From NCBI GenBank assembly GCA_947372535.1, contig CANBUA010000168.1, positions 1 through 10,379 of the forward strand: a DNA stretch of 10,379 bases. Reading direction: 5' to 3'. Shown here piece after piece: positions 1-10,379 of the stretch. Every line of letters starts with the position of its first letter. Position 1 is the stretch's first letter. The stretch is from Burkholderiales bacterium (lineage in GTDB: Bacteria; Pseudomonadota; Gammaproteobacteria; Burkholderiales; Burkholderiaceae). Both the position numbers and the translations under genes were made by a program. Below the pieces are notes generated by a model. It saw only the letters and a program-made list of their open reading frames with translations, did no database searches and had not been told where the DNA came from.

Positions 1-300
1 GCGGCCGCATTGGCACCCATGGCCGGTGCGGGGCTGCCCGGGCCGGCTGCTGCCGCAGAACGTCGGGATGACGTGACCACGGTGTCCTCCGATGCCTGGC
101 AGGCCTTGGCGCAAGCCTTGCGCGCCTTGATGGATCAGGATGAGGCGCAGTTGTACGAGCGCGTGGAATCGACCCTGGTGACGTTGGGCTACGAACACGC
201 CGGACGCAATCAGGTCCGGGCGGCTCGCCTGCTGGGCCTGACGCGCAACATGATCCGTACCCAGCTCAAGCGGCACGGCCTGCTCGAAGACGCAGCCTGA
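1..300 (+). CDS. C-terminal end of a Fis-type HTH regulator (probable sigma-54 enhancer-binding protein)
   Basis: Only the last 99 codons are present; the frame is open from base 1 and ends at TGA 298-300, so the TTG at 10 is not needed as a start. An Ala/Gly/Pro-rich linker is followed by an acidic helical stretch, then a C-terminal helix-turn-helix reading NQVRAARLLGLTRNMIRTQL, closely like the Fis DNA-binding helices (NQTRAA...G..R.TLR.KL). That arrangement is typical of NtrC-family activators that recruit sigma-54 RNA polymerase; their AAA+ domain (GAFTGA loop, Walker motifs) would lie left of the window and cannot be seen. The gene converges on sbp. A role as regulator of this locus is inferred from its position and from -24/-12 promoter elements at 8308-8321 and 8557-8571. 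Other Fis-domain proteins are possible but less likely. Confidence 0.75.
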   Translation, partial: AAALAPMAGAGLPGPAAAAERRDDVTTVSSDAWQALAQALRALMDQDEAQLYERVESTLVTLGYEHAGRNQVRAARLLGLTRNMIRTQLKRHGLLEDAA

Positions 301-440: not shown

Positions 441-1481
441 TCACTTCTTCAGGTAGATCTGATCGAACACGCCGCCATCGGCGAAGTGCGTCTTCTGAGC
501 CTTGGCCCAGCCGCCGAAGGTGTCGTCCACCGTGAACAGGTTCAGCTTCGGAAACTGCTTGGCGTACTTGGCAGCGGCCTTCGTGTCGAGCGGACGGTAG
601 TAGTACTTGCCGATCAGGTCCTGGCCAGCGGGCGAGTACAGGTATTCCAGGTAAGCCTGGGCCACTTCACGGGTGCCACGCTTGTCGACCACCTTGTCGA
701 CCACGGCCACGGGCGGCTCGGCCAGGATGCTGGTGGCGGGGTAGACCACGTCGAACTTGTCGTCGCCAAATTCCTTCTTGATCAGGCCGACTTCGCTTTC
801 CCACGACAGCAGCACGTCACCCAGGCCGCGCTCCGAGAAGGACACGGTGGCGCCACGGGCACCCGAATCCAGCACAGGCACGTGCTCATACAGCTTGGCG
901 ACGAAGGCGCGGGCCTTGGCATCGTCACCGTTGTTCTTCTTCAGGGCGTAGCCGTAAGCGGCCAGGTAGGCCCAGCGTGCGCCGCCAGAGGTCTTGGGGT
1001 TGGCGGTGATCACGGCGTTGCCAGGCTTGACCACGTCGTCCCAAGTCTTGATGTTCTTGGGGTTGCCCTTGCGGACCAGGAACACGATGGTGGACGAGTA
1101 AGGCGTGGCGTTGGCCTTGAACTTCTTCTGCCAGTCGGTGGACACCAGGCCCTTGTCGGCGATGGCATCGATGTCATAGGCCAGGGCCAGGGTGACGACG
1201 TCGGCTTCCAGGCCGTCGATCACCGAGCGCGCTTGCTTGCCCGAGCCGCCATGAGATGCCTTGACGGTGACGTCATCACCGGTCTTGGCCTTCCAGTAGC
1301 TGGCGAACACCTTGTTGTAGTCGGCATAGAACTCGCGGGTCGGATCGTACGACACGTTGAGCAGGGTGATGTCCTTGGCCTGGGCGACCGCAGGGACCAG
1401 AGACGCCACACCGGTCAGGGCGGTGACAGCCGCCAGCGCCAGGGTGGAAAAGGTGCGGCGAGTGGAAAACAACGTGGTCAT
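441..1481 (-). CDS. sbp: Periplasmic sulfate-binding protein of an ABC transporter
   Basis: A 346-residue protein of the prokaryotic sulfate-binding family (E. coli Sbp is about 330 residues). It binds sulfate in the periplasm and delivers it to a CysTWA-type importer. Residues 1-35 form a signal peptide ending AVAQA, with an RR pair (TRRTF) that could be read by Tat or Sec. Family features seen are the SYDPTREFY block (44-52), SHGGSGKQ (76-83, part of the sulfate pocket in Sbp/CysP) and NPKTSGGAR (161-169), which matches the family signature N-P-K-[ST]-S-G-x-A-R. In the other family signature the usual Gln before Ser is Ala75. No sulfate permease or ATPase genes (cysT, cysW, cysA) lie next to it, so it is an orphan here. 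It is the last gene of the minus-strand series, 107 bases after the cytochrome gene, and is closed by the terminator at 382-347. Its leader has no strong Shine-Dalgarno sequence. Confidence 0.92.
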
Positions 1482-1588: not shown

Positions 1589-2248
1589 TCAGCTGGGCCA
1601 CAGGCCTGCAGCCAGCGCCGCAGCGCCAAAGCCGAGGAACAGGGCAACAGGAAGCGCATAGGCCGGCGCCCTTTTTGGCGGCTTGATGGCACGATCGACT
1701 TGCTTGCTGCCGTGAACCATGGGCGGCACCAGGGCTTCCTTCTTGACGATCTTGTAGCCCACGATGGCCAGGATGTGCAGCACCAGGATGGCGTAGACGC
1801 CAAATGCGGCCAGGCGGTGCTTGCCCGTCAACCAGATGGACGTGTCCTCGCTGACCCAACGGGCCAGGGGGCCGGTGAAGGCGATCTCGTCGTTGCCGAA
1901 CAGGCCAGTCATCACCTGAAAGCTCAGCAAACCGAGCATGGCCAGCACCGAGAATGCACCCAGGGGGTTGTGCCCCAGGCCGTGCCACTGGCCCTTCAGA
2001 TATGCCGAGATGGCCGCGGGGCCACGCACGAAAGTCGCGAAGCGTGCCGTCTCTGAGCCCACGAGGCCCCAGACCAGTCGAAACGCGAGCAATCCTGCGG
2101 TGGCAATGCCCGCCTTGCCATGCAGCTCCATCCAGTCGCCGCCTTTGAGCCCGGTGGCGATGGCGGTACCCACCGACGCCACCAAAGCCCAATGAAAGAG
2201 CCGCAACGGCGCATCCCAGACCCGTACGGAGATGGACGATGCGCTCAT
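1589..2248 (-). CDS. Cytochrome b561-family membrane protein
   Basis: A 219-residue, largely hydrophobic protein of the bacterial cytochrome b561 / Ni-Fe-hydrogenase b-type cytochrome family: four to five membrane helices binding b-type haem that pass electrons between quinone and a periplasmic partner. The N-terminus VWDAPLRLFHWAL (10-22) is characteristic. Histidines suited to axial haem ligation are His19, His43, His144 and His158; His89 and His93 lie in a loop. The C-terminal part has a basic Pro-rich loop and a final helix (about 196-216). ATG (2248) follows the rhodanese stop codon (2252-2250) by a single base, so the two are probably translationally coupled and work together. A role as membrane electron carrier for a periplasmic sulfur redox step is inferred from the neighbours; the actual partner is unknown. 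Confidence 0.85.
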   Translation of the reverse strand: MSASSISVRVWDAPLRLFHWALVASVGTAIATGLKGGDWMELHGKAGIATAGLLAFRLVWGLVGSETARFATFVRGPAAISAYLKGQWHGLGHNPLGAFSVLAMLGLLSFQVMTGLFGNDEIAFTGPLARWVSEDTSIWLTGKHRLAAFGVYAILVLHILAIVGYKIVKKEALVPPMVHGSKQVDRAIKPPKRAPAYALPVALFLGFGAAALAAGLWPS

Positions 2249-2249
2249 G

Positions 2250-2744
2250 TCAGTTGGACGCAGCCGATGCGGCCGGACGCGGTGCAGGAATGGCCACCTT
2301 GACGATGGTGCCGCCCGCTTCGCGGTAGTCTTCCGAGCCCAAGGCGCCAGCCACCTTGAAGCCCTTGGCGCTCAGCAGATCACCCGCAGCGCCGGCACGG
2401 TGTGCGCGGTTAGACACGGTGATGATCTGGCGGTCGCGGGGAATGTAGTCCAGCACATCAGGCAGGTCCTTGACCTGGATGTTCAGGTAAACCGGCAGCG
2501 TGCCGAGCTTGCTGATTTCATCAGGGCGGCGGACGTCGATCACCAGCAGCTTCTTGGGGTTGCCCACCAGCTTGTCCACATCATTGCGGCTGAGCTGCTT
2601 GGTCTTGTACGTCCAGGGTTGCGGCGCCGGTGCGCTGGCTGCCGCGTCGGGCGCCGAGGCAGCCACCTGGGCATGGGCAGACAGGGCGGGCAGAGCCAGT
2701 GCGGCAGCCAGCGGAAGGGCGGCGAACAAGTGCTTGATGGTCAT
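2250..2744 (-). CDS. Exported rhodanese-fold protein with catalytic Cys replaced by Ser
   Basis: A 164-residue protein with a signal peptide (1-25, ...LPALSAHA) followed by an Ala/Pro-rich linker and one rhodanese domain (about 50-150). The domain shows LLVIDVRRPDE (66-76), matching the conserved D-x-R strand, and the active-site loop at 111-116 reads SNRAHR. In active rhodaneses this loop is C-x-x-x-x-R, where Cys carries the persulfide. Here the Arg end (116) is kept but the Cys position is Ser111, encoded TCT, one base from TGT. It is therefore unlikely to be a thiosulfate:cyanide sulfurtransferase and may bind a sulfur oxyanion or act as a partner or scaffold protein in the periplasm. It is coupled to the cytochrome b561 gene by a one-base gap and sits between the ATPase and sbp genes. 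ATG at 2744 gives an intact signal peptide; no strong ribosome-binding site is visible. Confidence 0.85.
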   Translation of the reverse strand: MTIKHLFAALPLAAALALPALSAHAQVAASAPDAAASAPAPQPWTYKTKQLSRNDVDKLVGNPKKLLVIDVRRPDEISKLGTLPVYLNIQVKDLPDVLDYIPRDRQIITVSNRAHRAGAAGDLLSAKGFKVAGALGSEDYREAGGTIVKVAIPAPRPAASAASN

Positions 2745-2850: not shown

Positions 2851-3633
2851 TCAAGCGGCCTGAGCCAGCACTTCCGGTTGGGGCAAGGCGAACTCGCTCA
2901 TCACGTCGTCTTCGATGCGCTTGAAGTCAAGTGACGCGCGATCACGTGGGCGCGGCAGGTTCACGTCCACCACCCGGCGGATGCGGCCCGGGCGAGGCTG
3001 CATGACCACGATGCGATCGCCGAGATACACGGCCTCCTCCACATCATGGGTGACCAGGATGGCGGTGATGCCTTCGGCCTGCCAGATGCGTTGCAGCTCG
3101 TGCTGCAGACGGCTGCGCGTCATGGCATCCAGCGCGCCAAAGGGTTCGTCCAGCAACAGCACCTCGGGCCTGTTGACCAGCGCTCGCGCAATGGCCACAC
3201 GCTGAGACATGCCACCCGACAGCTGATAGGGGTAGGCCTTCTCGAAGCCCTTGAGCCCCACCAGGTGGATGTGCTCGCGCACGCTCTTGTCCTTCTCGGC
3301 TTGCGAGCCTGGGGCGTTCAGCAAGCCGAGCGCCACGTTCTGCTCCGCCGTCAGCCAGGGGAACAGGCGGTGTTCCTGGAACACAATGCCGCGGTCCAGG
3401 CTGGTGCCACGGATGGGCCTGCCGTCCAGCAGCAACTGGCCCTCATAGCCCGCTTCCAGGCCGATGAGCAAGCGCAACAAGGTGGACTTGCCGCAGCCGC
3501 TGGAGCCCACGATGCTGATGAACTCTCCCGGGCGGATGGACAGGTTGATGTCCTGCAGGACGGGCAGGGGGGTGCCTTTGACCGAGTAGGTCTTGTTCAG
3601 GTTCTGGATGTCGATGGTGCCTGCTTGAGACAT
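2851..3633 (-). CDS. ssuB-like: Sulfonate/taurine-type ABC transporter ATP-binding protein
   Basis: A 260-residue ATPase of the nitrate/sulfonate/taurine importer group (SsuB/TauB/NrtD). It powers uptake through the two permeases encoded just upstream. Visible motifs are Walker A GSSGCGKST (43-51), Q-loop Gln86 in VFQEHRLFPWLT, the ABC signature LSGGMSQ (137-143), Walker B VLLLDE (157-162) with catalytic Glu162, D-loop GALD (165-168) and switch His195 in VTHDVEEA. The FQEHRLFPWL and ALDAMTR stretches are typical of SsuB/TauB-type subunits. The start at 3633 is well supported by AGGAG (3645-3641), 7 bases upstream. The gene follows the second permease by 39 bases, consistent with one operon. 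The substrate (alkanesulfonate, taurine or sulfate ester) cannot be told from the ATPase. Confidence 0.93.
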   Translation of the reverse strand: MSQAGTIDIQNLNKTYSVKGTPLPVLQDINLSIRPGEFISIVGSSGCGKSTLLRLLIGLEAGYEGQLLLDGRPIRGTSLDRGIVFQEHRLFPWLTAEQNVALGLLNAPGSQAEKDKSVREHIHLVGLKGFEKAYPYQLSGGMSQRVAIARALVNRPEVLLLDEPFGALDAMTRSRLQHELQRIWQAEGITAILVTHDVEEAVYLGDRIVVMQPRPGRIRRVVDVNLPRPRDRASLDFKRIEDDVMSEFALPQPEVLAQAA

Positions 3634-3672: not shown

Positions 3673-4458
3673 TCAACGCTGCTGCGGCGCGCGCCAGCGC
3701 AGCAGCCGTTGCTCCGCCAGGCCGGCGAGGCGGTTGAAAAACACGCCCACAAAGCCGATGGCCAGCAGGCCGAAAAGGATCAGCTCGATGTTGAAGGCCA
3801 TGCGGCCTTTGAACACGATGTTGCCCAGGCCATGGCCGTCGTTGACCAGCAGGAATTCGGCGCCAATGGTGGCCAGCCAGGCGTAGATCAGGCCCAGGCG
3901 CAAGCCGCCGATGATCTGGGGCGAAGCCGCCGGCAGCACCAGGCGAACCAGGGTCTGCCGCGGGGTGAAGCCATAGACCCGGGCCACTTCGGCATGGGCT
4001 TGGGTGACGCCGCGCACACCATCCAGCGTGCCCAGCACCACCGGATAGAAGGCCGAGAACCCGATGAAGATCACCTTGGCCACATCGCCCGTGCCCACCA
4101 GCGCCGACAGCAGGGGCAGCCAGGCAAACAACGAGATCTGGCGGGCCGTGTGGAAGGTGGGCCCGATGAGCTTGTCGGCCAATCGCGACATGCCGAGCAA
4201 AGCGCCCACGGCCACGCCAGCCAGCGCGCCCAGCGTGAAGCCCGACAGGTCGCGCCACAGGCTGAGGCCCACGCCCGCGTAGAAAGTGGGGTTGGCCAGC
4301 TCCTTGATCGCGGTGGTCAACACGCCTTGTGGTGGCACGATGAGCTTGGTGTTGACCCAGTGGTTCTGCGTGGCGATGACCCACAGGGCGATGAAGCCGA
4401 CGGGCAGTACGAAGCCGCGCCAGTCCAGGCGGGAGGTTGAATCGGAAGCGTTTGACAT
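3673..4458 (-). CDS. ssuC-like: ABC transporter inner-membrane permease (SsuC/TauC type), second copy
   Basis: A 261-residue integral membrane permease of the SsuC/TauC (BPD_transp_1) family, about the usual length. It begins at ATG 4458 (MSNASDST...), 20 bases after the first permease ends; the frame stays open further upstream, but that sequence overlaps the first permease gene and is not plausible protein. About six membrane helices are seen, the first at 15-30. The cytoplasmic EAA loop that docks on the ATPase reads EVARVYG (157-163) followed by LVLPAASP, with the conserved Gly163 intact. It probably pairs with the permease at 4479-5423 to form a heterodimeric channel, since SsuC-type systems usually have only one such gene. 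Confidence 0.9.
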   Translation of the reverse strand: MSNASDSTSRLDWRGFVLPVGFIALWVIATQNHWVNTKLIVPPQGVLTTAIKELANPTFYAGVGLSLWRDLSGFTLGALAGVAVGALLGMSRLADKLIGPTFHTARQISLFAWLPLLSALVGTGDVAKVIFIGFSAFYPVVLGTLDGVRGVTQAHAEVARVYGFTPRQTLVRLVLPAASPQIIGGLRLGLIYAWLATIGAEFLLVNDGHGLGNIVFKGRMAFNIELILFGLLAIGFVGVFFNRLAGLAEQRLLRWRAPQQR

Positions 4459-4478: not shown

Positions 4479-5423
4479 TCAGAAGGCGCTGCGGCGCCAG
4501 CCTTGCAGGCGCGATTCGATCAGACGCAAGGTCAGCTCGATCACGACGCCCAGGGCGCCGATGGCGAACATGGCCACGATCACCATGTCGATCTGGCTCA
4601 AGGAGCGGCTGTAAGCCATGAAGAAGCCCAGGCCTTCGCTGGACGACAGCAGCTCGACGAAGATGACCGACAGCCAGGCCTGCATCACGCCCTGGCGCAG
4701 CCCGGTGAACAAGGCCGGCGTGGCCGCAGGCAACACGATTCGGCTGAGGGTCTGCCAGGTGTTGAATCGGTACACCCGCCCCACCTCCAGCATGGCCGCC
4801 GGGATGTTGGCGATGCCGCTCAGGGTGCTCAGCGCCACCGGCACCACCACCGAGATCGACACGGCCGTGATCTTCAGGGGTTCTTCGATGCCCACGAAGA
4901 TGATGAGCAGGGGGATCCAGCCCAGCACGGGCAGTTGAGCCAGGGCGTCGAAGGTCGGGAAGACGTAGGCCTTGACGCTGCGAGACAGGCCCATGGCCAG
5001 ACCCAGAAACAGGCCACTGCCACCGCCGATGAGCAGGCTCCAGCCCACGCGCTTGAGGCTGAACAGCACATGGCCTTGCAACTCCCCGGATTGCAGGACG
5101 ATGCCCAGGGATTCCCACACGAACGCCGGTGAGGGCAGGATCTGCTCTGCCACCCAATGGCGATCGGCGGCCAGCCACCACAAGCCCCACAGCAGGCTGG
5201 GCAGGATCAGCCCGAGCGCCACCGTGGCCAGCATGCCGCCCAGGCCTTGCAACAAGGATCGCAAGCCAGTCAGCCCCGAGCTGACCGCTCCCCTGTCTGC
5301 CTTGGTGACACCTTCATCCCCGGCTCGCGGCAAGGCGGTGACAGGGGCTTTCAAGCGGGCATGTGCAGGCCCATCCGTTGCAATGGGGGGAAAGATGACA
5401 AGGTCGTCGGTGGACGCGGCCAT
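4479..5423 (-). CDS. ssuC-like: ABC transporter inner-membrane permease (SsuC/TauC type), first copy
   Basis: A 314-residue permease of the same family, longer than usual because of a roughly 55-residue polar N-terminal extension before the first membrane helix (about 63-86). The next possible Met is residue 64, inside that helix, so ATG 5423 is the sensible start even though the ribosome-binding site is weak (AGAGAAAG). The EAA loop reads EVGRVYR (213-219) then IVLPAATP: the conserved loop glycine is Arg219 here, whereas it is kept in the second permease. This may mean asymmetric coupling to the ATPase. The gene begins 24 bases after the binding-protein stop, in one operon. Tandem SsuC-like permeases instead of one suggest a system diverged from classical SsuABC; sulfate-ester transport of the Pseudomonas Ats kind is one possibility. 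Confidence 0.9.
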   Translation of the reverse strand: MAASTDDLVIFPPIATDGPAHARLKAPVTALPRAGDEGVTKADRGAVSSGLTGLRSLLQGLGGMLATVALGLILPSLLWGLWWLAADRHWVAEQILPSPAFVWESLGIVLQSGELQGHVLFSLKRVGWSLLIGGGSGLFLGLAMGLSRSVKAYVFPTFDALAQLPVLGWIPLLIIFVGIEEPLKITAVSISVVVPVALSTLSGIANIPAAMLEVGRVYRFNTWQTLSRIVLPAATPALFTGLRQGVMQAWLSVIFVELLSSSEGLGFFMAYSRSLSQIDMVIVAMFAIGALGVVIELTLRLIESRLQGWRRSAF

Positions 5424-5447: not shown

Positions 5448-6542
5448 TCAGGTGCGGGTGAACTTGCCGGTGGCGTCCTGGGTGGGCCAGTAGGTTTCCA
5501 GCTTTTGTTCGCGCAATGCGTTGTTCAGGTACTTGGGTTCCAGCCAGCCGTCGAAGATGGCATCGCGGCGGGTCAGGCGGTACTTCTTGATCTCTTCAAT
5601 GGAGCGCTGGATGGAGGTCACGTAGTACTCGTCCAGCAAAGGGTTGATGCGCACACGCAGGTCTTTCGTGCGAGCCCAAATTTCCTTGTTGTCGATGTAG
5701 GTGTTGGTGCCAGAGCGCGTCCACAGCTGGTATTGCGTCTCGCGGTTGGCCTCTTGGCTGCTCCAGTACGCCACCTTGACCAGGCGGTTGACGATGCGCT
5801 GCACCAGGTCTGGGTAGCGCTGCTCAAAGAGCTCGCCAACCCACACGCTGCTTGGCACGTTGATGTAAGGGTCGTCATAGATGACGGCCAGGCGCTTGGC
5901 CACGCCGCGGGCTTCCAGGCCAAAGGGGGTGTCGATCGTCCCGGCGATGTCCCCTGTGGCCAGTGATGCTCGGCGATCGTCCGGAATCTGGCTGATGATG
6001 CGGAACTCTTTTTCGGGCTCGGTGACGCCGTACTTGGCCAGGAAGCGGTACAGCTGCAGCTGTCCGGCTGTGCCTTTTTGCACGGACAGCGTTTTGCCTT
6101 TGAGGTCTGCCACCGTCTTGGCTGTGGAGGTGGCTGGCGTGATGAAATAGGTGTCACCACCGCGACCAGAAGACATGATGATCTTGTGCTTGAGGCCGGT
6201 GGCGCGGCCCACGATCAAAGGCAGGTCACCATGACCAAAGCAGAAGTCCAGCAGGCCATTGGCATAGGCTTCGTTCAGCGCAGGGCCGGCGCCCACGTAG
6301 TACTTCCATTCGATCTTGATGCCGTCTGCGGCGAACTCTTGTTCCAGTTCGTTGCGAAAGACCGCGTTGGCAGGGAAGCTGGACGCGGGCAGCGGGCGAC
6401 CACCCGTGCCCGCATTGGGGAAGCCGATGCGGATGGTGGCGGGCTTGCCACCGTCGGCGGCGCGTGCGGCCGTGCTCAGGCCGATCAGGGCAGGGGCAGC
6501 CAGGCCGGCGGCCAATGCAGCGTTGAAGTGACGACGATTCAT
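5448..6542 (-). CDS. Periplasmic substrate-binding protein of the sulfonate/sulfate-ester-type ABC transporter
   Basis: A 364-residue solute-binding protein of the SsuA/TauA/NMT1-like group. The N-terminus MNRRHF with a hydrophobic stretch ending TAARAA (to about residue 29) is a Tat-type signal peptide. The mature protein opens IRIGFPNAGTGGRPLP (37-52), then VGAGPALNEAYANGLLDF (83-100) and GDLPLIVGRATGLK (105-118 region). These blocks fit the SsuA-like fold, but GTGGRP and GDLPLIVGRA differ from standard SsuA and recall AtsR-like proteins, which bind sulfate esters in Pseudomonas; this is from memory and uncertain. ATG 6542 is chosen because it gives a clean signal peptide and has GGAG 9 bases upstream (6555-6552). 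The frame extends to 6656 but would overlap the porin gene. It follows the porin by 40 bases, in the same operon. Confidence 0.88.
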   Translation of the reverse strand: MNRRHFNAALAAGLAAPALIGLSTAARAADGGKPATIRIGFPNAGTGGRPLPASSFPANAVFRNELEQEFAADGIKIEWKYYVGAGPALNEAYANGLLDFCFGHGDLPLIVGRATGLKHKIIMSSGRGGDTYFITPATSTAKTVADLKGKTLSVQKGTAGQLQLYRFLAKYGVTEPEKEFRIISQIPDDRRASLATGDIAGTIDTPFGLEARGVAKRLAVIYDDPYINVPSSVWVGELFEQRYPDLVQRIVNRLVKVAYWSSQEANRETQYQLWTRSGTNTYIDNKEIWARTKDLRVRINPLLDEYYVTSIQRSIEEIKKYRLTRRDAIFDGWLEPKYLNNALREQKLETYWPTQDATGKFTRT

Positions 6543-6582: not shown

Positions 6583-8259
6583 TCAGAAGGTGGTGTTGAG
6601 CTGAACAGCCCAGCCATTGGCGGTCGCCGGCTTGGCGGCAGTAGGTGCTGCACCACCTAACTGGTTGGTCGTGTGAATCTGGTTGATCTGCACGCGGCTG
6701 GTCTCGGCGAAAAAGACGTTCAGCCCAAAGGTCCGGACCCAGACCTTGTCGTTGAGGGCCTTGCCACTGCGGTTGGGATCCCACTCGTCAAAGCGGAGGA
6801 AGGCCTGGTAGGACTTGGGCCAGAAGTCGTCGAACTTGCCCTGGTTCTTGGAACTGCTGAGGAACTGCTCGCCCCAGGTGTAGCCAAAGTTGACGTACTG
6901 ACCCGAGCTGCGCTGCAGGCCGTCTGCATCCGCCGTTGTGGATGTGGCCAGGCTGTTCTTGCCATAGGCCCATTCATAGGAGATGGAGTAGGGCAGGTGG
7001 GTCCAGTTCAGGTCAATGCCGCGACGGCTGTTCACGCCCTTCTTCGTGGCGGTGGTCGTCGAGATGTCGTTGGTGGCCGCCGACGTGATCGTGGTGTAGC
7101 CACGGTAGTAGGAAGCGCCAATTTGGAACTGGCGCAGCCAACTGGCGTAGTCCACCGGCAGGGTGTAGACCAGGCGACCGATCAGGTCCTTGTAATCGTT
7201 GTTGTCGGCTCGGTTCGTGCCGTTGCCGTTGAACACACCAAAGGCATAGGCCACGGAAGGGGCGCGGTAGTTGCTGGTGAAGTCAACGTAGGGGTCGTAG
7301 TCACCGGCAACCACCACACCGGTCTGGCGTGTGCCCAGACCGAGGCCTGACACGAAGCCAGCGTTGTTGATCACAGGGCGAACTTCTGGGTCCAGCGCCT
7401 GCGCGTCCTGGCCAAAGGGAATGGCCTGCTGGCCGAGCGTGACGGTGCCCAGCGGATCCTCCGGATTTCCGCTGGCGGGCTGGAAGCTGTAGCGCAGGTA
7501 GACGTCGGTGGCGTTGAGGAAGCTGTTGCCGTTGGCGATGGTTGCTGTCTTGGTGCCCGTGGCGGTGGTGCCGCTGACGGTCGAGCTCGAAGTCACCGTG
7601 GTGGCGTTGGTCGACGCGAAGGCCAGGCGATAGGTCAGGTTGCGGCCAGCCTCGTAGTCGCGAAAGAGCGTGCCGGTCAGGTTTAATGAATAAGATGGGG
7701 CAGCAAAGCCGTTGGCCCGTGTGGCGGTGGCGCCTGCACCGCTGGACGACGCGCTGGGTTGCGCCTTGGGGTTGTTGGTGTCGTAGCGAACCGTGACACC
7801 GCCGCCCAGCTTGGTGTTGCGCGTCACGCTGGGAACATTGCGCTCCAGTTGGCGAGCGTTGTCGTACTTGTAGTTCTCCATGTCTGTCCGCAGGCCCTGG
7901 ATGTCGGCCTTGGTGGCCGGCGTGCGGGCCTGGAGGGCTTCGTCGCTCTCGCCCTCTTGAGGCTGATCGACCGCCTTGGACTTGGCGGCTTCGTCGTTCA
8001 GCATCTGGAGTTGCGTTTTCAGGTCGTTGACCTGGCGGTTCAGTTCGTCGACGCGTGCGCGGTCCAGAGCGTTGGTGCCGCTGCCCTGTGCCGAGCGCAG
8101 CTCTTGAATCTGTTTGCGCAGGGTTTCCACAGTCTCCTTCAGGGACTGGATCTCTGCCGCGCCAGTGGCCGTGGCGGCGGCGGGTGCCGCCTGAGCAGCC
8201 GCGCAGGCCAGAGACAGGATCACAGCCCCAGCCAGCGCAGTTGTTTTGAATGAATGCAC
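6583..8259 (-). CDS. Outer-membrane porin with N-terminal coiled coil (OprO/OprP-like)
   Basis: A 558-residue protein. It has a signal peptide (1-24, ending AAAQA), then an alpha-helical segment rich in heptads (about 35-95, LKETVETLRKQIQELR), then a beta-barrel domain (about 135-558) with alternating strands, many aromatic girdle residues and a C-terminal Phe (VQLNTTF), the usual BAM assembly signal. Blocks such as YDPYVDFTSNYRAPSVAYAF and FLNATDVYLRYSF resemble phosphate-selective porins O/P. The start is GTG at 8259, supported by GAGGAG (8272-8267), 7 bases upstream; no ATG is in a sensible place. As first gene of the importer operon it probably admits the transporter's substrate, an anion, across the outer membrane. 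The coiled coil could trimerise in the periplasm or contact peptidoglycan. Substrate specificity is not readable. Confidence 0.87.
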   Translation of the reverse strand: MHSFKTTALAGAVILSLACAAAQAAPAAATATGAAEIQSLKETVETLRKQIQELRSAQGSGTNALDRARVDELNRQVNDLKTQLQMLNDEAAKSKAVDQPQEGESDEALQARTPATKADIQGLRTDMENYKYDNARQLERNVPSVTRNTKLGGGVTVRYDTNNPKAQPSASSSGAGATATRANGFAAPSYSLNLTGTLFRDYEAGRNLTYRLAFASTNATTVTSSSTVSGTTATGTKTATIANGNSFLNATDVYLRYSFQPASGNPEDPLGTVTLGQQAIPFGQDAQALDPEVRPVINNAGFVSGLGLGTRQTGVVVAGDYDPYVDFTSNYRAPSVAYAFGVFNGNGTNRADNNDYKDLIGRLVYTLPVDYASWLRQFQIGASYYRGYTTITSAATNDISTTTATKKGVNSRRGIDLNWTHLPYSISYEWAYGKNSLATSTTADADGLQRSSGQYVNFGYTWGEQFLSSSKNQGKFDDFWPKSYQAFLRFDEWDPNRSGKALNDKVWVRTFGLNVFFAETSRVQINQIHTTNQLGGAAPTAAKPATANGWAVQLNTTF

Positions 8260-8321: not shown

Positions 8322-8371
8322 TGCAAAACAACTCGACCTGCTGCCCTGACAACCGCCGTTCAGCACGGAAA

Positions 8372-8433
8372 TGTTGAATCAACAACATCTGGCCTGCTGA
8401 TTTTTCAACACCTTTGCTGATGAAATTTCAACA
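8372..8433. promoter_or_regulatory. TGTTGA repeat cluster: candidate enhancer site for an activator
   Basis: The 13-base palindrome TGTTGA-A-TCAACA (8372-8384) is followed by two further TCAACA half-sites at 8405-8410 and 8428-8433, each preceded by T-runs (TTTCAACA). The TCAACA copies start 26 and 23 bases apart, near two to two and a half helical turns. They sit about 75-140 bases upstream of the predicted porin transcription start and about 150-210 upstream of the predicted start for the divergent gene, the normal range for sigma-54 activator sites. Binding by the Fis-type regulator ending at 300 is inferred. Confidence 0.5.
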
Positions 8434-8507
8434 GTCAGAGGCTGTGGTTAAAAACCATACGCAAGCACCGATGGCATACCTATATTTGCCAAACCAATAT
8501 CAATACA

Positions 8508-8556: not shown

Positions 8557-8571
8557 TGGCACGCCAATTGC
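8557..8571 (+). promoter_or_regulatory. Sigma-54 (-24/-12) promoter of the DUF1549/DUF1553 gene
   Basis: TGGCAC (8557-8562), GCCAA, TTGC (8568-8571) matches the sigma-54 consensus TGGCACG-N4-TTGC completely, with GG (8558-8559) and GC (8570-8571) at the invariant 12-base offset. Transcription would begin near 8583, giving an untranslated leader of about 104 bases. The leader holds two weak folding elements: GGTGA/TCACC arms at 8613-8617 and 8635-8639, and the imperfect palindrome TGAGCGAATTGCTCA at 8651-8665, which ends 21 bases before the start codon. Confidence 0.8.
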
Positions 8572-8686
8572 GTAAGTGACGCAACCCAACCGGGCTGGAA
8601 TTGATGAATTGGGGTGACGGTCTTGAATATGACATCACCGAGCAAGCATATGAGCGAATTGCTCAACGCACATGAGGTCAAGCAAT

Positions 8687-10379
8687 ATGAATAAGGTTAT
8701 CTCTCTCACTGCGATATTGGGTTCGCTGGCCATTGGCGCTGTCGCGGCCGAGTCGCCCGCCAAGAATTGGTCGCCTTATGTGGCCGTCAAAAAACCCGAT
8801 CAGCCGGTGGTCAAACAAAAAGCCTGGGTGCGTGACCCGCTGGACACCTATGTGCTCGCCCAAATCGAGTCCAAAGGTCTGAAGCCTTCGGCCGAAGCCG
8901 ATCGCGCCACCTACATCCGTCGCGCCACCCTGGATGCCTGGGGCTTGCTGCCCACGCCTGAGGAAATCAAGGCTTTTGTCAGCGACAAGTCGCCCAATGC
9001 CTACGACAAGCTGGTCGACCGACTGCTGGCTTCGCCTCACTTCGGCGAGCGCCAGGCTCGCCGCTGGCTGGACATCGCCCGCTATGCCGACAGCACGGGC
9101 TTTCAGAACGACAACACCCGTCCCAACAACTGGCGCTATCGCGACTACGTGATCAACGCCTTCAACCAGGACAAGCCGTACTCGCGCTTCATCCAGGAGC
9201 AGGTGGCTGGTGACGAGCTGTTCCAGGGCAACCAGGAAGCGCAGATCGCCACAGGCTATCTGGCCGGCTACCCGGACAACGCCAACTCCCGCGACTTGGT
9301 GCAACGCAAGTACCAGATCGAAACCGACATCACCGATCTGGTCGGCGAGTCGCTCTTGGGCACCACCATCGGTTGCGCCCGTTGCCACAACCACAAGCAG
9401 GACAAGATCAGCCAGAAGGAGTACTTCCAGCTGCAGGCCTACTTCTCCAATGTGGCCTTCGACGAGCGTCGTCCGCTGGCCAAGGGCACGGAGACCGAAT
9501 GGGATCAGGCCTTCACCAAGCAGCAAGCGGCTTACAACGAAGCCACCAAGGACCTGCGCGCACAGCAGAAGGCCATCCTGGATTCGGTGCGCGAAGAAGG
9601 GCGCAAGTACTACAACGAGCGTTACCTGACCGACAGCCGCGACGCCATCTTCAAGCCCAAGGAGCAATGGACGCCCCTGGACCGCTGGGTGAACTACCGC
9701 AAGGATGCCGTGGCGTCGGACGCCGACATCGTGTCCTACCTGCGCGAGTTTGGCCAGGAAAAGGAACGCACAGGCTACAGCGAGGAGATCGCCCAGAAGC
9801 TGAAGGCGTACAACAAGCTGGGTGAAGAACTCAAGCAGTTCGACAAGCTTCGTCCTGCCAAGGGCTCTCGCTTCATCACCGCTGCCAACGAGCTGGGCCA
9901 TGCCGATGCGCCGCCCACCTTCGTGCGCTTTGGTGGCATCCACGAGCGTCCGCTGGAAGAAGTGAAGCCGACCATCCCCTCCTTGTGGATTGGCAAGGGT
10001 CAACAACCCGAGGTCAAACCGCTGGCCGACTCGTCTGGCCGCCGCAGCGCGCTGGCTGCCTGGCTCACGGCCGACACCAATCCGCTGACGCCGCGCGTCT
10101 ACGTGAACCGCGTGTGGGGCCAGTACTTCGACAAGGGCATCGTGGCCACAGCACAAGACTTCGGTCGTGCTGGCGCCAAGCCCACGCACCCCGAGTTGCT
10201 GGACTTCCTGGCCGCCAACTTCGTGGAGATCGGCTGGAGCGTGAAGAAGCTGCACCGCGAGATCCTGCTGTCCGCCACCTACCGCCAGTCGTCGAACGAG
10301 CGTGAAGAGGTTCGCAAGGTTGATCCGGAAAACAAGCTGCTGGCCGTGTACCCGCGCAAGCGCCTGGAAGCCGAAGAGA
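8687..10379 (+). CDS. Secreted DUF1549/DUF1553 protein with one CxxCH motif (partial, 3' end outside)
   Basis: The first 564 codons, open to the right edge. ATG 8687 is chosen because GAGGT (8674-8678) lies 8 bases upstream; an in-frame ATG at 8672 has no such site and the frame is closed by TGA 8651-8653. Residues 1-21 are a signal peptide (LGSLAIGAVAA). DUF1549 spans about 48-260: DPLDTYVLAQIE, RRATLDAWGLLPTPEE, RWLDIARYADS, WRYRDYVINAFNQDKPYSRF and the diagnostic CARCHNHK, in which C230-A-R-C233-H234 is a c-type haem motif. A charged helical stretch (about 270-430) follows, then the start of DUF1553 from about 440: NPLTPRVYVNRVWGQYFDKG, THPELLDFLAANFV and LLSATYRQSS. The family is known mainly from Planctomycetes and Verrucomicrobia, often beside DUF1501 (alkaline phosphatase/sulfatase superfamily) genes; its biochemical role is not established. 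The missing C-terminus and the next genes lie outside. Its divergence from a sulfur-type importer with a sigma-54 promoter suggests periplasmic processing of an organosulfur compound (inference). Confidence 0.9.
   Translation, partial: MNKVISLTAILGSLAIGAVAAESPAKNWSPYVAVKKPDQPVVKQKAWVRDPLDTYVLAQIESKGLKPSAEADRATYIRRATLDAWGLLPTPEEIKAFVSDKSPNAYDKLVDRLLASPHFGERQARRWLDIARYADSTGFQNDNTRPNNWRYRDYVINAFNQDKPYSRFIQEQVAGDELFQGNQEAQIATGYLAGYPDNANSRDLVQRKYQIETDITDLVGESLLGTTIGCARCHNHKQDKISQKEYFQLQAYFSNVAFDERRPLAKGTETEWDQAFTKQQAAYNEATKDLRAQQKAILDSVREEGRKYYNERYLTDSRDAIFKPKEQWTPLDRWVNYRKDAVASDADIVSYLREFGQEKERTGYSEEIAQKLKAYNKLGEELKQFDKLRPAKGSRFITAANELGHADAPPTFVRFGGIHERPLEEVKPTIPSLWIGKGQQPEVKPLADSSGRRSALAAWLTADTNPLTPRVYVNRVWGQYFDKGIVATAQDFGRAGAKPTHPELLDFLAANFVEIGWSVKKLHREILLSATYRQSSNEREEVRKVDPENKLLAVYPRKRLEAEE

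Follow-up and report, generated by a model that had tools for sequence, protein, structure and literature searches.

The DNA analysed here is a stretch of 10,379 nucleotides (nt) from a Burkholderiales bacterium (contig CANBUA010000168.1 of assembly GCA_947372535.1), which is referred to in its full length as the window. At its right end it contains the larger part of a gene for a secreted protein combining the domains DUF1549 (PSCyt2) and DUF1553 (PSD1), preceded by a putative sigma-54 promoter and by palindromic activator sites. This gene, its control region and its relatives in other genomes are the subject of the present analysis. The features concerned are the following:

8687–10379, forward strand: secreted haem c-type protein with DUF1549 (PSCyt2) and DUF1553 (PSD1), 3′ end cut by the window end
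9374–9388, forward strand: haem c motif CARCH (within CARCHNHK), a CxxCH formed by the protein's only two cysteines
8557–8572, forward strand: predicted sigma-54 (−24/−12) promoter TGGCACGCCAATTGCG, 17.2 of 20.5 bits
8393–8412, no strand assigned: palindromic upstream activator site, copy 1, 22.3 bits
8416–8435, no strand assigned: palindromic upstream activator site, copy 2, 22.3 bits, 23 bp after copy 1
8370–8389, no strand assigned: weaker third copy of the activator site, 13.9 bits, 23 bp before the next copy

The start codon assigned to the gene is the ATG at 8687–8689, with GAGG nine bases 5′ of it; an alternative in-frame ATG is located at 8672. Judged by eye, the N-terminus carries a Sec-type signal peptide (MNKVISLTAILGSLAIGAVAAES...). 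The DUF1549/PSCyt2 domain (PF07583) is complete and covers residues 51–256 (nt 8837–9454) with an E-value of 1.6e-79 and 267 bits (cut-off 29.8), and DUF1553/PSD1 (PF07587) is matched over the first 113 of its 244 positions (nt 10040–10378; E-value 6.7e-51, 173 bits, cut-off 28.5). With both Pfam cut-offs passed and a CxxCH present in DUF1549, the protein belongs to the PSCyt2-PSD1 family. The initial annotation, made from the letters of the window alone, had listed a signal peptide, a DUF1549 with CARCHNHK and the start of a DUF1553, and the Pfam matches, the conservation of the motif and the signal peptide bear this out. A CxxCH arose in none of 2000 shuffles of the window protein, and all 76 aligned PSCyt2-PSD1 sequences have the pattern C-x-x-C-H-x-H. 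Proteins of the proteobacterial set display one CxxCH in 65 of 65 cases and exactly two cysteines in 44 of 65, which fits a mono-haem c protein, and attachment of haem c to PSCyt2-PSD1 is predicted.

Relatives were collected in one scan of 84,980 species genomes, seeded with six exact peptide patterns, so that their number (99 confirmed) is a lower bound; the best 80 of the 99 loci were analysed. A proteobacterial-type set comprises 63 of these (L001–L062 and L064, 56–78% identity), with carriers among Burkholderiales, Zoogloeaceae, Nitrosomonadales, Methylophilus, Methylomonas, Methylobacter, Cellvibrio, Nevskiaceae and some alphaproteobacteria, and 17 further loci (34–49% identity) are from Acidobacteria, Verrucomicrobia, Poribacteria and Planctomycetes. 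Genes in the loci were called by a simple open reading frame script and clustered, the cluster labels resting on one or two representatives (Pfam, NCBIfam). In the relatives the PSCyt2-PSD1 gene heads an operon (hereafter, the cassette) together with DUF1501, two cytochromes and a peroxiredoxin. DUF1501 is present in 57 of the 63 proteobacterial-type loci, a small C-terminal cytochrome in 49, a dihaem cytochrome in 46, a rhodanese-like protein in 42, a TonB receptor in 36, cytochrome b561 in 28, a sigma-54 activator (cluster 8) in 22, a PepSY membrane protein in 21, cytochrome c′ in 19 and a porin in 12. Since the next gene on the same strand is DUF1501 in 57 of the 60 proteobacterial-type places that have a next gene, a DUF1501 gene likely lies to the right of position 10,379. 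In the 17 loci from other phyla, only DUF1501 (13/17) and a sulfatase (1/17) occur out of 31 neighbour clusters counted. Regarding the small cytochrome beside DUF1501, 20 of its 50 members, all in Methylococcaceae loci (e.g. L025, 13765–14199), carry CxxxCH, an unusual haem-attachment spacing, and 29 carry CxxCH.

No other sigma-54 site in the window, on whichever strand, scores as high as the one at 8557–8572, which lies upstream of the PSCyt2-PSD1 gene (the matrix was hand-made from the sigma-54 consensus). Taking the rhodanese-like gene as the first gene wherever it precedes PSCyt2, a site of at least 13 bits is found before 46 of 65 proteobacterial operons, as compared to 1.8% of shuffled stretches and none of the 18 operons from other phyla. 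When only clusters that have at least five upstream stretches are counted, such sites precede 45% of PSCyt2 (n = 65), 49% of rhodanese-like (n = 43), 69% of porin (n = 13), 59% of TonB receptor (n = 44) and 50% of arylsulfotransferase genes (n = 6), as well as 43% of one cytochrome c′ cluster (n = 7); in other clusters the share is 0–8%. An expectation-maximization search of the 250 nt before the sigma-54 sites in 90 non-redundant stretches returned one palindrome, gCTGcTGaaNNttCAgCAGc, with a log-likelihood of 559 versus 71–75 in three shuffled sets. Its median position is 160 nt before the promoter. At a threshold of at least 12 bits it occurs in 76 of the 90 training stretches versus 2.7% of random locus stretches; training of the matrix was confined to genes of the cassette, porins, receptors and arylsulfotransferases, whose scores are not independent, and the ssuD operons are independent of it.

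Pairs of activator site and promoter number 114 in 1.16 Mb of loci versus 1 in the shuffle, and 91 of the 114 precede PSCyt2, rhodanese-like, receptor or porin genes. Such a pair is also found before an operon of FMN-reductase, SfnB-like protein, SsuD and Ssu importer in Aquabacterium commune (G003) and in G316, and before ssuD in Methylophilus (G006) and in G313, so that 4 of the 8 genomes examined have the pair at an ssuD operon. Further pairs precede the activator gene in L042 and in the cassette-bearing island of Methylomonas sp. LW13. A genome-wide search with the activator-site pattern, allowing one mismatch, recovered both known sites of Methylomonas LW13; in most of 11 genomes it was barely above the reversed control, the site being too variable to be caught in this way.

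SfnR, itself regulated by CysB, controls the use of dimethyl sulfone in a sigma-54-dependent manner (excerpt of PMC8234197). At the left end of the window, positions 1–300 (forward strand, cut by the window start) encode the C-terminal 99 amino acids of a sigma-54 activator with a Fis-type helix-turn-helix end, which is 55–66% identical in BLASTP (E-values down to 3.8e-22) to the cluster-8 activators of L001, L004, L006 and L008. The full-length relative in L001 consists of Sigma54_activat and HTH_8 and is devoid of an N-terminal sensor domain. The combination of a sensor-less sigma-54 activator near the operon with a promoter and a shared activator site would place the cassette in a regulon of the SfnR type. 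No SfnR model was among the NCBIfam matches listed, and the names of the homologues listed say only "sigma-54" or "Fis family". Cassettes of Methylocapsa and Methylosinus (L024 and L030) are without a good sigma-54 site, and the same loci contain a regulator that by eye is of the Rrf2 type, perhaps an exchanged control system.

SrpI forms the shell of a cysteine-desulfurase encapsulin, which increases in sulfur-starved cells (excerpts of PMC8049743 and PMC8346489). The 49 loci searched correspond to 47 cassette genomes (L016 was left out, and L043 and L049 belong to one genome), 45 of which contain SrpI (PF19307), versus 12 of the 299 genomes of a phylum sample. In a sample of the family of Methylomonas LW13, SrpI is found in 19 of 23 genomes with PF07583 and in 26 of 78 without it (Fisher p 3e-5; p-values are made too small by the relatedness between genomes). 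PSCyt2 and the nearest copy of SrpI share a contig in 25 of the 45 genomes, including the complete 5.2-Mb Methylomonas chromosome, and all 25 pairs are 3.4–43.7 kb apart; in the other 20 genomes they are on different draft contigs. The family sample adds six same-contig pairs, three of them at 11–21 kb.

SrpI adjoins a cysteine desulfurase (CyD) gene in L030, L038, L041 and L064 (by clustering, and by Pfam for L064) and in four islands read, which is the arrangement of a Family 2A encapsulin locus. The island of Methylomonas LW13 contains, in this order, the activator, an arylsulfotransferase, two TonB receptors, SMP-30, the rhodanese-like gene, PSCyt2-PSD1, DUF1501, a cytochrome, a peroxiredoxin, a dihaem cytochrome, a second peroxiredoxin, PepSY, CyD, SrpI, serine acetyltransferase, CysK, a CysB-type regulator, a CysA-type ATPase, CysW and CysT. 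The sulfur genes across the islands read are CysK, serine acetyltransferase, CysTWA, SsuD, and sulfatase or arylsulfotransferase.

A link to sulfur is suggested by the promoter and site common to the cassette and some ssuD operons, by the co-occurrence and proximity of SrpI, and by the sulfur genes of the islands, and we consider a role of the cassette in the sulfur-starvation response highly probable. The initial annotation had proposed that the protein serves organosulfur scavenging; this context has gained support that could not be known from the window, from conserved promoters and the activator site to the tight linkage with SrpI and with cysteine and sulfate genes. The mechanism, including a catalytic haem and uptake of the product by the neighbouring importer, is still a proposal. 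In our preferred and, as a whole, reasonably probable reading, the gene heads an operon that constitutes the periplasmic, cytochrome-linked arm of an SfnR-type, sigma-54-driven sulfur-starvation regulon. It may be argued that the sulfur neighbourhood is due to hitch-hiking, a chance or historic cluster without shared function. The gene order does differ between loci, with L019 and L049 as examples that are without most partners, and three genomes of the family sample have PSCyt2 and SrpI on one contig at distances of 112, 558 and 872 kb. We nevertheless regard this explanation as very improbable, given 114 site-promoter pairs against one by chance and a distance of at most 44 kb in 28 of the 31 cases where SrpI shares the contig.

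Several observations weigh against the regulon reading. The sigma-54 score is below 13 bits in 19 of 65 operons; nine of these are at 12.2–12.6 bits and ten are lower, the latter including the alphaproteobacterial L024, L030, L056 and L059 as well as L019, L020, L035 and L052. No site-promoter pair was found at the second ssuD of G313 or in the ssuD regions of G011, G489, G501 and G323, the last of these at a contig end. SrpI is missing from 4 of the 23 PF07583 genomes in the LW13 family sample, and the three distant SrpI pairs given above belong here as well. None of eight chosen sulfur markers is present in the available DNA of 36 of the 63 loci, many of which are short contigs with SrpI often just beyond; likewise, the Ssu-like binding protein or importer was not found in 52 of the 63 loci, some of them short contigs. 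SsuD is present in only 6 of the 47 cassette genomes, and cytochromes, hydrolases and peroxiredoxin alone do not indicate sulfur chemistry. The count of 6/47 would suggest the cassette as a replacement of SsuD. The family sample of A. commune points the other way, with SsuD matched in 9 of 11 PF07583 genomes versus 70 of 189 others (p 0.004; some of the 11 have longer PSCyt2 frames and may be without this cassette).

The main rival explanation accepts a sulfur-starvation module but without release of sulfur: the cassette would be a periplasmic redox or peroxide defence that shields cells short of thiols. An AhpC/TSA peroxiredoxin in 50 of the 63 loci and a DsbD-type reductant (DsbD) in 7 of 63 fit such a role, and sulfur-starved P. 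aeruginosa induces scavenging proteins together with antioxidants, among them lsfA, a 1-Cys peroxiredoxin whose induction exceeds 45-fold (excerpt of PMC12581299). A defence of this kind leaves unexplained the alkaline-phosphatase/sulfatase (AlkP) fold of DUF1501, the co-regulated porin and TonB receptors, the hydrolases (SMP-30, DLH, MBL) and the arylsulfotransferase, and we deem it unlikely.

SMP-30 (19/63 loci) and DLH (18/63) are also compatible with the view that the cassette degrades a carbon polymer or another organic compound, as suggested for relatives in the Planctomycetes–Verrucomicrobia–Chlamydiae (PVC) group, its place in sulfur islands then being due to a sulfated substrate. In Cellvibrio, a polysaccharide-degrading genus, a sulfatase and an arylsulfotransferase adjoin the cassette. 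Verrucomicrobial sulfatase genes often have PSCyt, glycoside hydrolase and pectin-lyase-like genes in their vicinity, and carbohydrate-binding modules occur in some of the PSCyt genes (excerpt of PMC5615132). On the other side stand the regulation shared with ssuD operons in four genomes and the nature of the carriers, many of which are methanotrophs or methylotrophs and grow on one-carbon compounds. Polymer degradation appears quite improbable to us, no search aimed at glycoside hydrolases having been made.

DUF1501, the most constant partner, has the fold of the AlkP superfamily. Formylglycine arises from the cysteine or serine of the motif C/S-x-P/A-x-R. Formylglycine (type I) sulfatases share their overall fold with DUF1501, but cysteine is absent from 51 of 57 aligned DUF1501 proteins of the proteobacterial set, and the motif [CS]x[PA]xR occurs in only 4 of the 57, at no fixed place, so that DUF1501 is probably not a sulfatase of this type. 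Its invariant residues are S68, H151, D344, H346, D361, R400, D401 and H402, and D71 and E387 are nearly so.

Returning to the sulfur-starvation regulon, we hypothesize the following course of events. At low sulfate, the sensor-less sigma-54 activator would bind the paired palindromes at 8393–8435 and open the promoter at 8557. Organosulfur compounds may pass the outer membrane via the co-regulated porin (TonB receptors in relatives) and be jointly attacked in the periplasm by Tat-exported DUF1501 and haem-bearing PSCyt2-PSD1, with electrons leaving through the small cytochrome, the dihaem cytochrome and cytochrome b561, and with peroxiredoxin protecting from peroxide. Freed sulfate or a small sulfonate would be imported by Sbp/CysTWA and the Ssu-like importer and fixed by serine acetyltransferase and CysK, excess cysteine sulfur going to the SrpI encapsulin. 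For the central step, a release of sulfur from an organosulfur compound by the PSCyt2-PSD1/DUF1501 pair with electrons passed to cytochromes, the balance tips only slightly in favour. The class of substrate is a guess, namely a sulfonate or sulfate ester whose bulk would make a TonB receptor necessary in many species.

The cassette resembles the PSCyt2-PSD1/DUF1501 genes of Planctomycetes, Verrucomicrobia and Acidobacteria in its two Pfam domains, the invariant CxxCHxH and the DUF1501 neighbour. It differs in forming a separate clade, in its cytochrome, peroxiredoxin and rhodanese-like partners, in sigma-54 control, in linkage to SrpI, and in copy number: the 47 cassette genomes searched have one or two copies of PF07583, whereas DUF1549 and DUF1553 occur 41 times each in R. 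baltica, where a stress study suggested a redox function (excerpt of PMC2754498). PSCyt functions were described as entirely unassigned in the verrucomicrobial work, which reports PSCyt genes near sulfatases (excerpt of PMC5615132). With the Sfn-Msu-Ssu system of Pseudomonas and its regulator SfnR the cassette shares a sigma-54 activator that is without a sensor domain; in some genomes the regulon also includes SfnB/DszC-like and SsuD genes, and the LW13 island has a CysB-type regulator. The flavin monooxygenases by which the Pseudomonas system desulfonates are cytoplasmic; unlike these, the commonest targets of the cassette regulon are exported haem and AlkP-fold proteins and outer-membrane receptors. 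As in published Family 2A encapsulin operons, SrpI is accompanied by cysteine desulfurase and serine acetyltransferase, here usually at most 44 kb from the cassette; in the available portions of the encapsulin papers (PMC8049743, PMC8346489) neither PSCyt2/DUF1501 nor a periplasmic cytochrome operon was found to be linked with them. No report on the cassette, its promoters or its linkage to SrpI was found in the open-licence literature (preprints and most subscription journals being outside this scope), nor, in titles and the beginnings of abstracts there, a treatment of PSCyt2 or DUF1501 in sulfur starvation.

The family has been known until now chiefly from planctomycetes, and dozens of copies in R. 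baltica hide any single role of DUF1549/DUF1553. Proteobacteria have one or two copies and a definable regulon, as in Methylomonas sp. LW13, Aquabacterium commune, Cellvibrio mixtus and Zoogloea oleivorans, which makes the function accessible to ordinary growth tests on sole sulfur sources. If the reading is true, a periplasmic electron-transfer module joins the flavin monooxygenases in the sulfur-starvation response, and the SrpI encapsulin gains a recurrent genomic partner. More tentatively, and with rather more doubt than confidence, PSCyt2-PSD1 and DUF1501 might be a new kind of periplasmic, cytochrome-linked organosulfur-releasing pair, a formylglycine-free AlkP-fold protein with a haem c electron acceptor, of which one proteobacterial copy is under sigma-54 sulfur-starvation control and dozens of planctomycete and verrucomicrobial copies act likewise on sulfated polymers.

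The remainder of the window is a divergent left arm:

441–1481, reverse strand: sulfate-binding protein Sbp (NF008022, 513 bits, cut-off 288; TIGR00971, 488 bits, cut-off 155.5)
1589–2248, reverse strand: cytochrome b561-type membrane protein (PF01292, 3.8e-16)
2250–2744, reverse strand: exported rhodanese-like protein with serine at the catalytic cysteine position (PF00581, 1.6e-4, 22.5 bits, cut-off 22.2)
2851–3633, reverse strand: ABC importer ATPase of the nitrate/sulfonate/taurine type (PF00005, 2.2e-35; homologue in 14/63 loci)
3673–4458, reverse strand: ABC importer permease (PF00528, 4.5e-22)
4479–5423, reverse strand: ABC importer permease (PF00528, 4.7e-19)
5448–6542, reverse strand: SsuA/NMT1-like substrate-binding protein (PF09084, 2.9e-5)
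6583–8259, reverse strand: porin-like protein with an N-terminal coiled coil (porin by eye; Pfam gives only a sub-threshold FlxA match)

The order of this arm, with Sbp, cytochrome b561, rhodanese-like protein, ABC importer and porin in divergent orientation and the end of the activator, is that of L001, L002 and L004. The porin-like protein clusters with proteins divergent to the PSCyt2 gene in 12 further loci. A neighbourhood found in this strain only would have told against the original proposal; the porin is divergent within two genes in the window and these 12 loci, and the Ssu-like binding protein occurs in 11 of 63 loci. The window importer remains below the NCBIfam cut-offs for SsuABC (TIGR01728 for SsuA, 82 bits versus 163.5), and such importers are found in a minority of loci. 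DUF1501, c-type cytochromes, peroxiredoxin and the rhodanese-like protein are more constant partners. Compared with the original proposal, more weight falls on the DUF1501-cytochrome-peroxiredoxin operon and on the SrpI island, and less on the neighbouring transporter. In the rhodanese-like protein, Ser111 replaces the catalytic cysteine, invariantly in 42 of 42 aligned sequences, and it is probably not an active rhodanese. This cysteine-less gene is often located beside or inside the PSCyt2 operon.

In a quick, midpoint-rooted tree made without bootstrap, for which the program warned of long branches among the other rows, 60 rows (58 Pseudomonadota, the window and L019) form a single group with an SH-aLRT of 100. 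A recent import from planctomycetes is rejected on the basis of this group. PF07583 was found in 1 of 299 genomes of the even phylum sample, namely A. commune; samples of single families gave 23 carriers among 101 genomes for that of Methylomonas LW13 and 11 among 200 for that of A. commune. Together, the tree and these sparse counts indicate a patchy but old proteobacterial lineage, in agreement with the earlier remark that any transfer would be old. On the contig of L019, which was assigned to Bryobacterales (Acidobacteriota), there is a copy of the proteobacterial type with DUF1501 and without a sigma-54 site, by transfer or mis-binning. Zoogloea oleivorans (L012, L013; 9800–20700) has two PSCyt2-DUF1501-cytochrome cassettes in tandem, the second copy being the first branch within the proteobacterial group of the midpoint-rooted tree. 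In the Poribacteria loci L073, L074, L077 and L078, PSCyt2-DUF1501 adjoins repeated copies of two gene families (clusters 31 and 32) of about 470 and 500 amino acids. Near the cassette in L004 (16032–16739) and in 11 further loci there is an exported protein (cluster 17) that matches endostatin below the threshold; in L017 and L051 it has a sigma-54/activator-site pair of its own.

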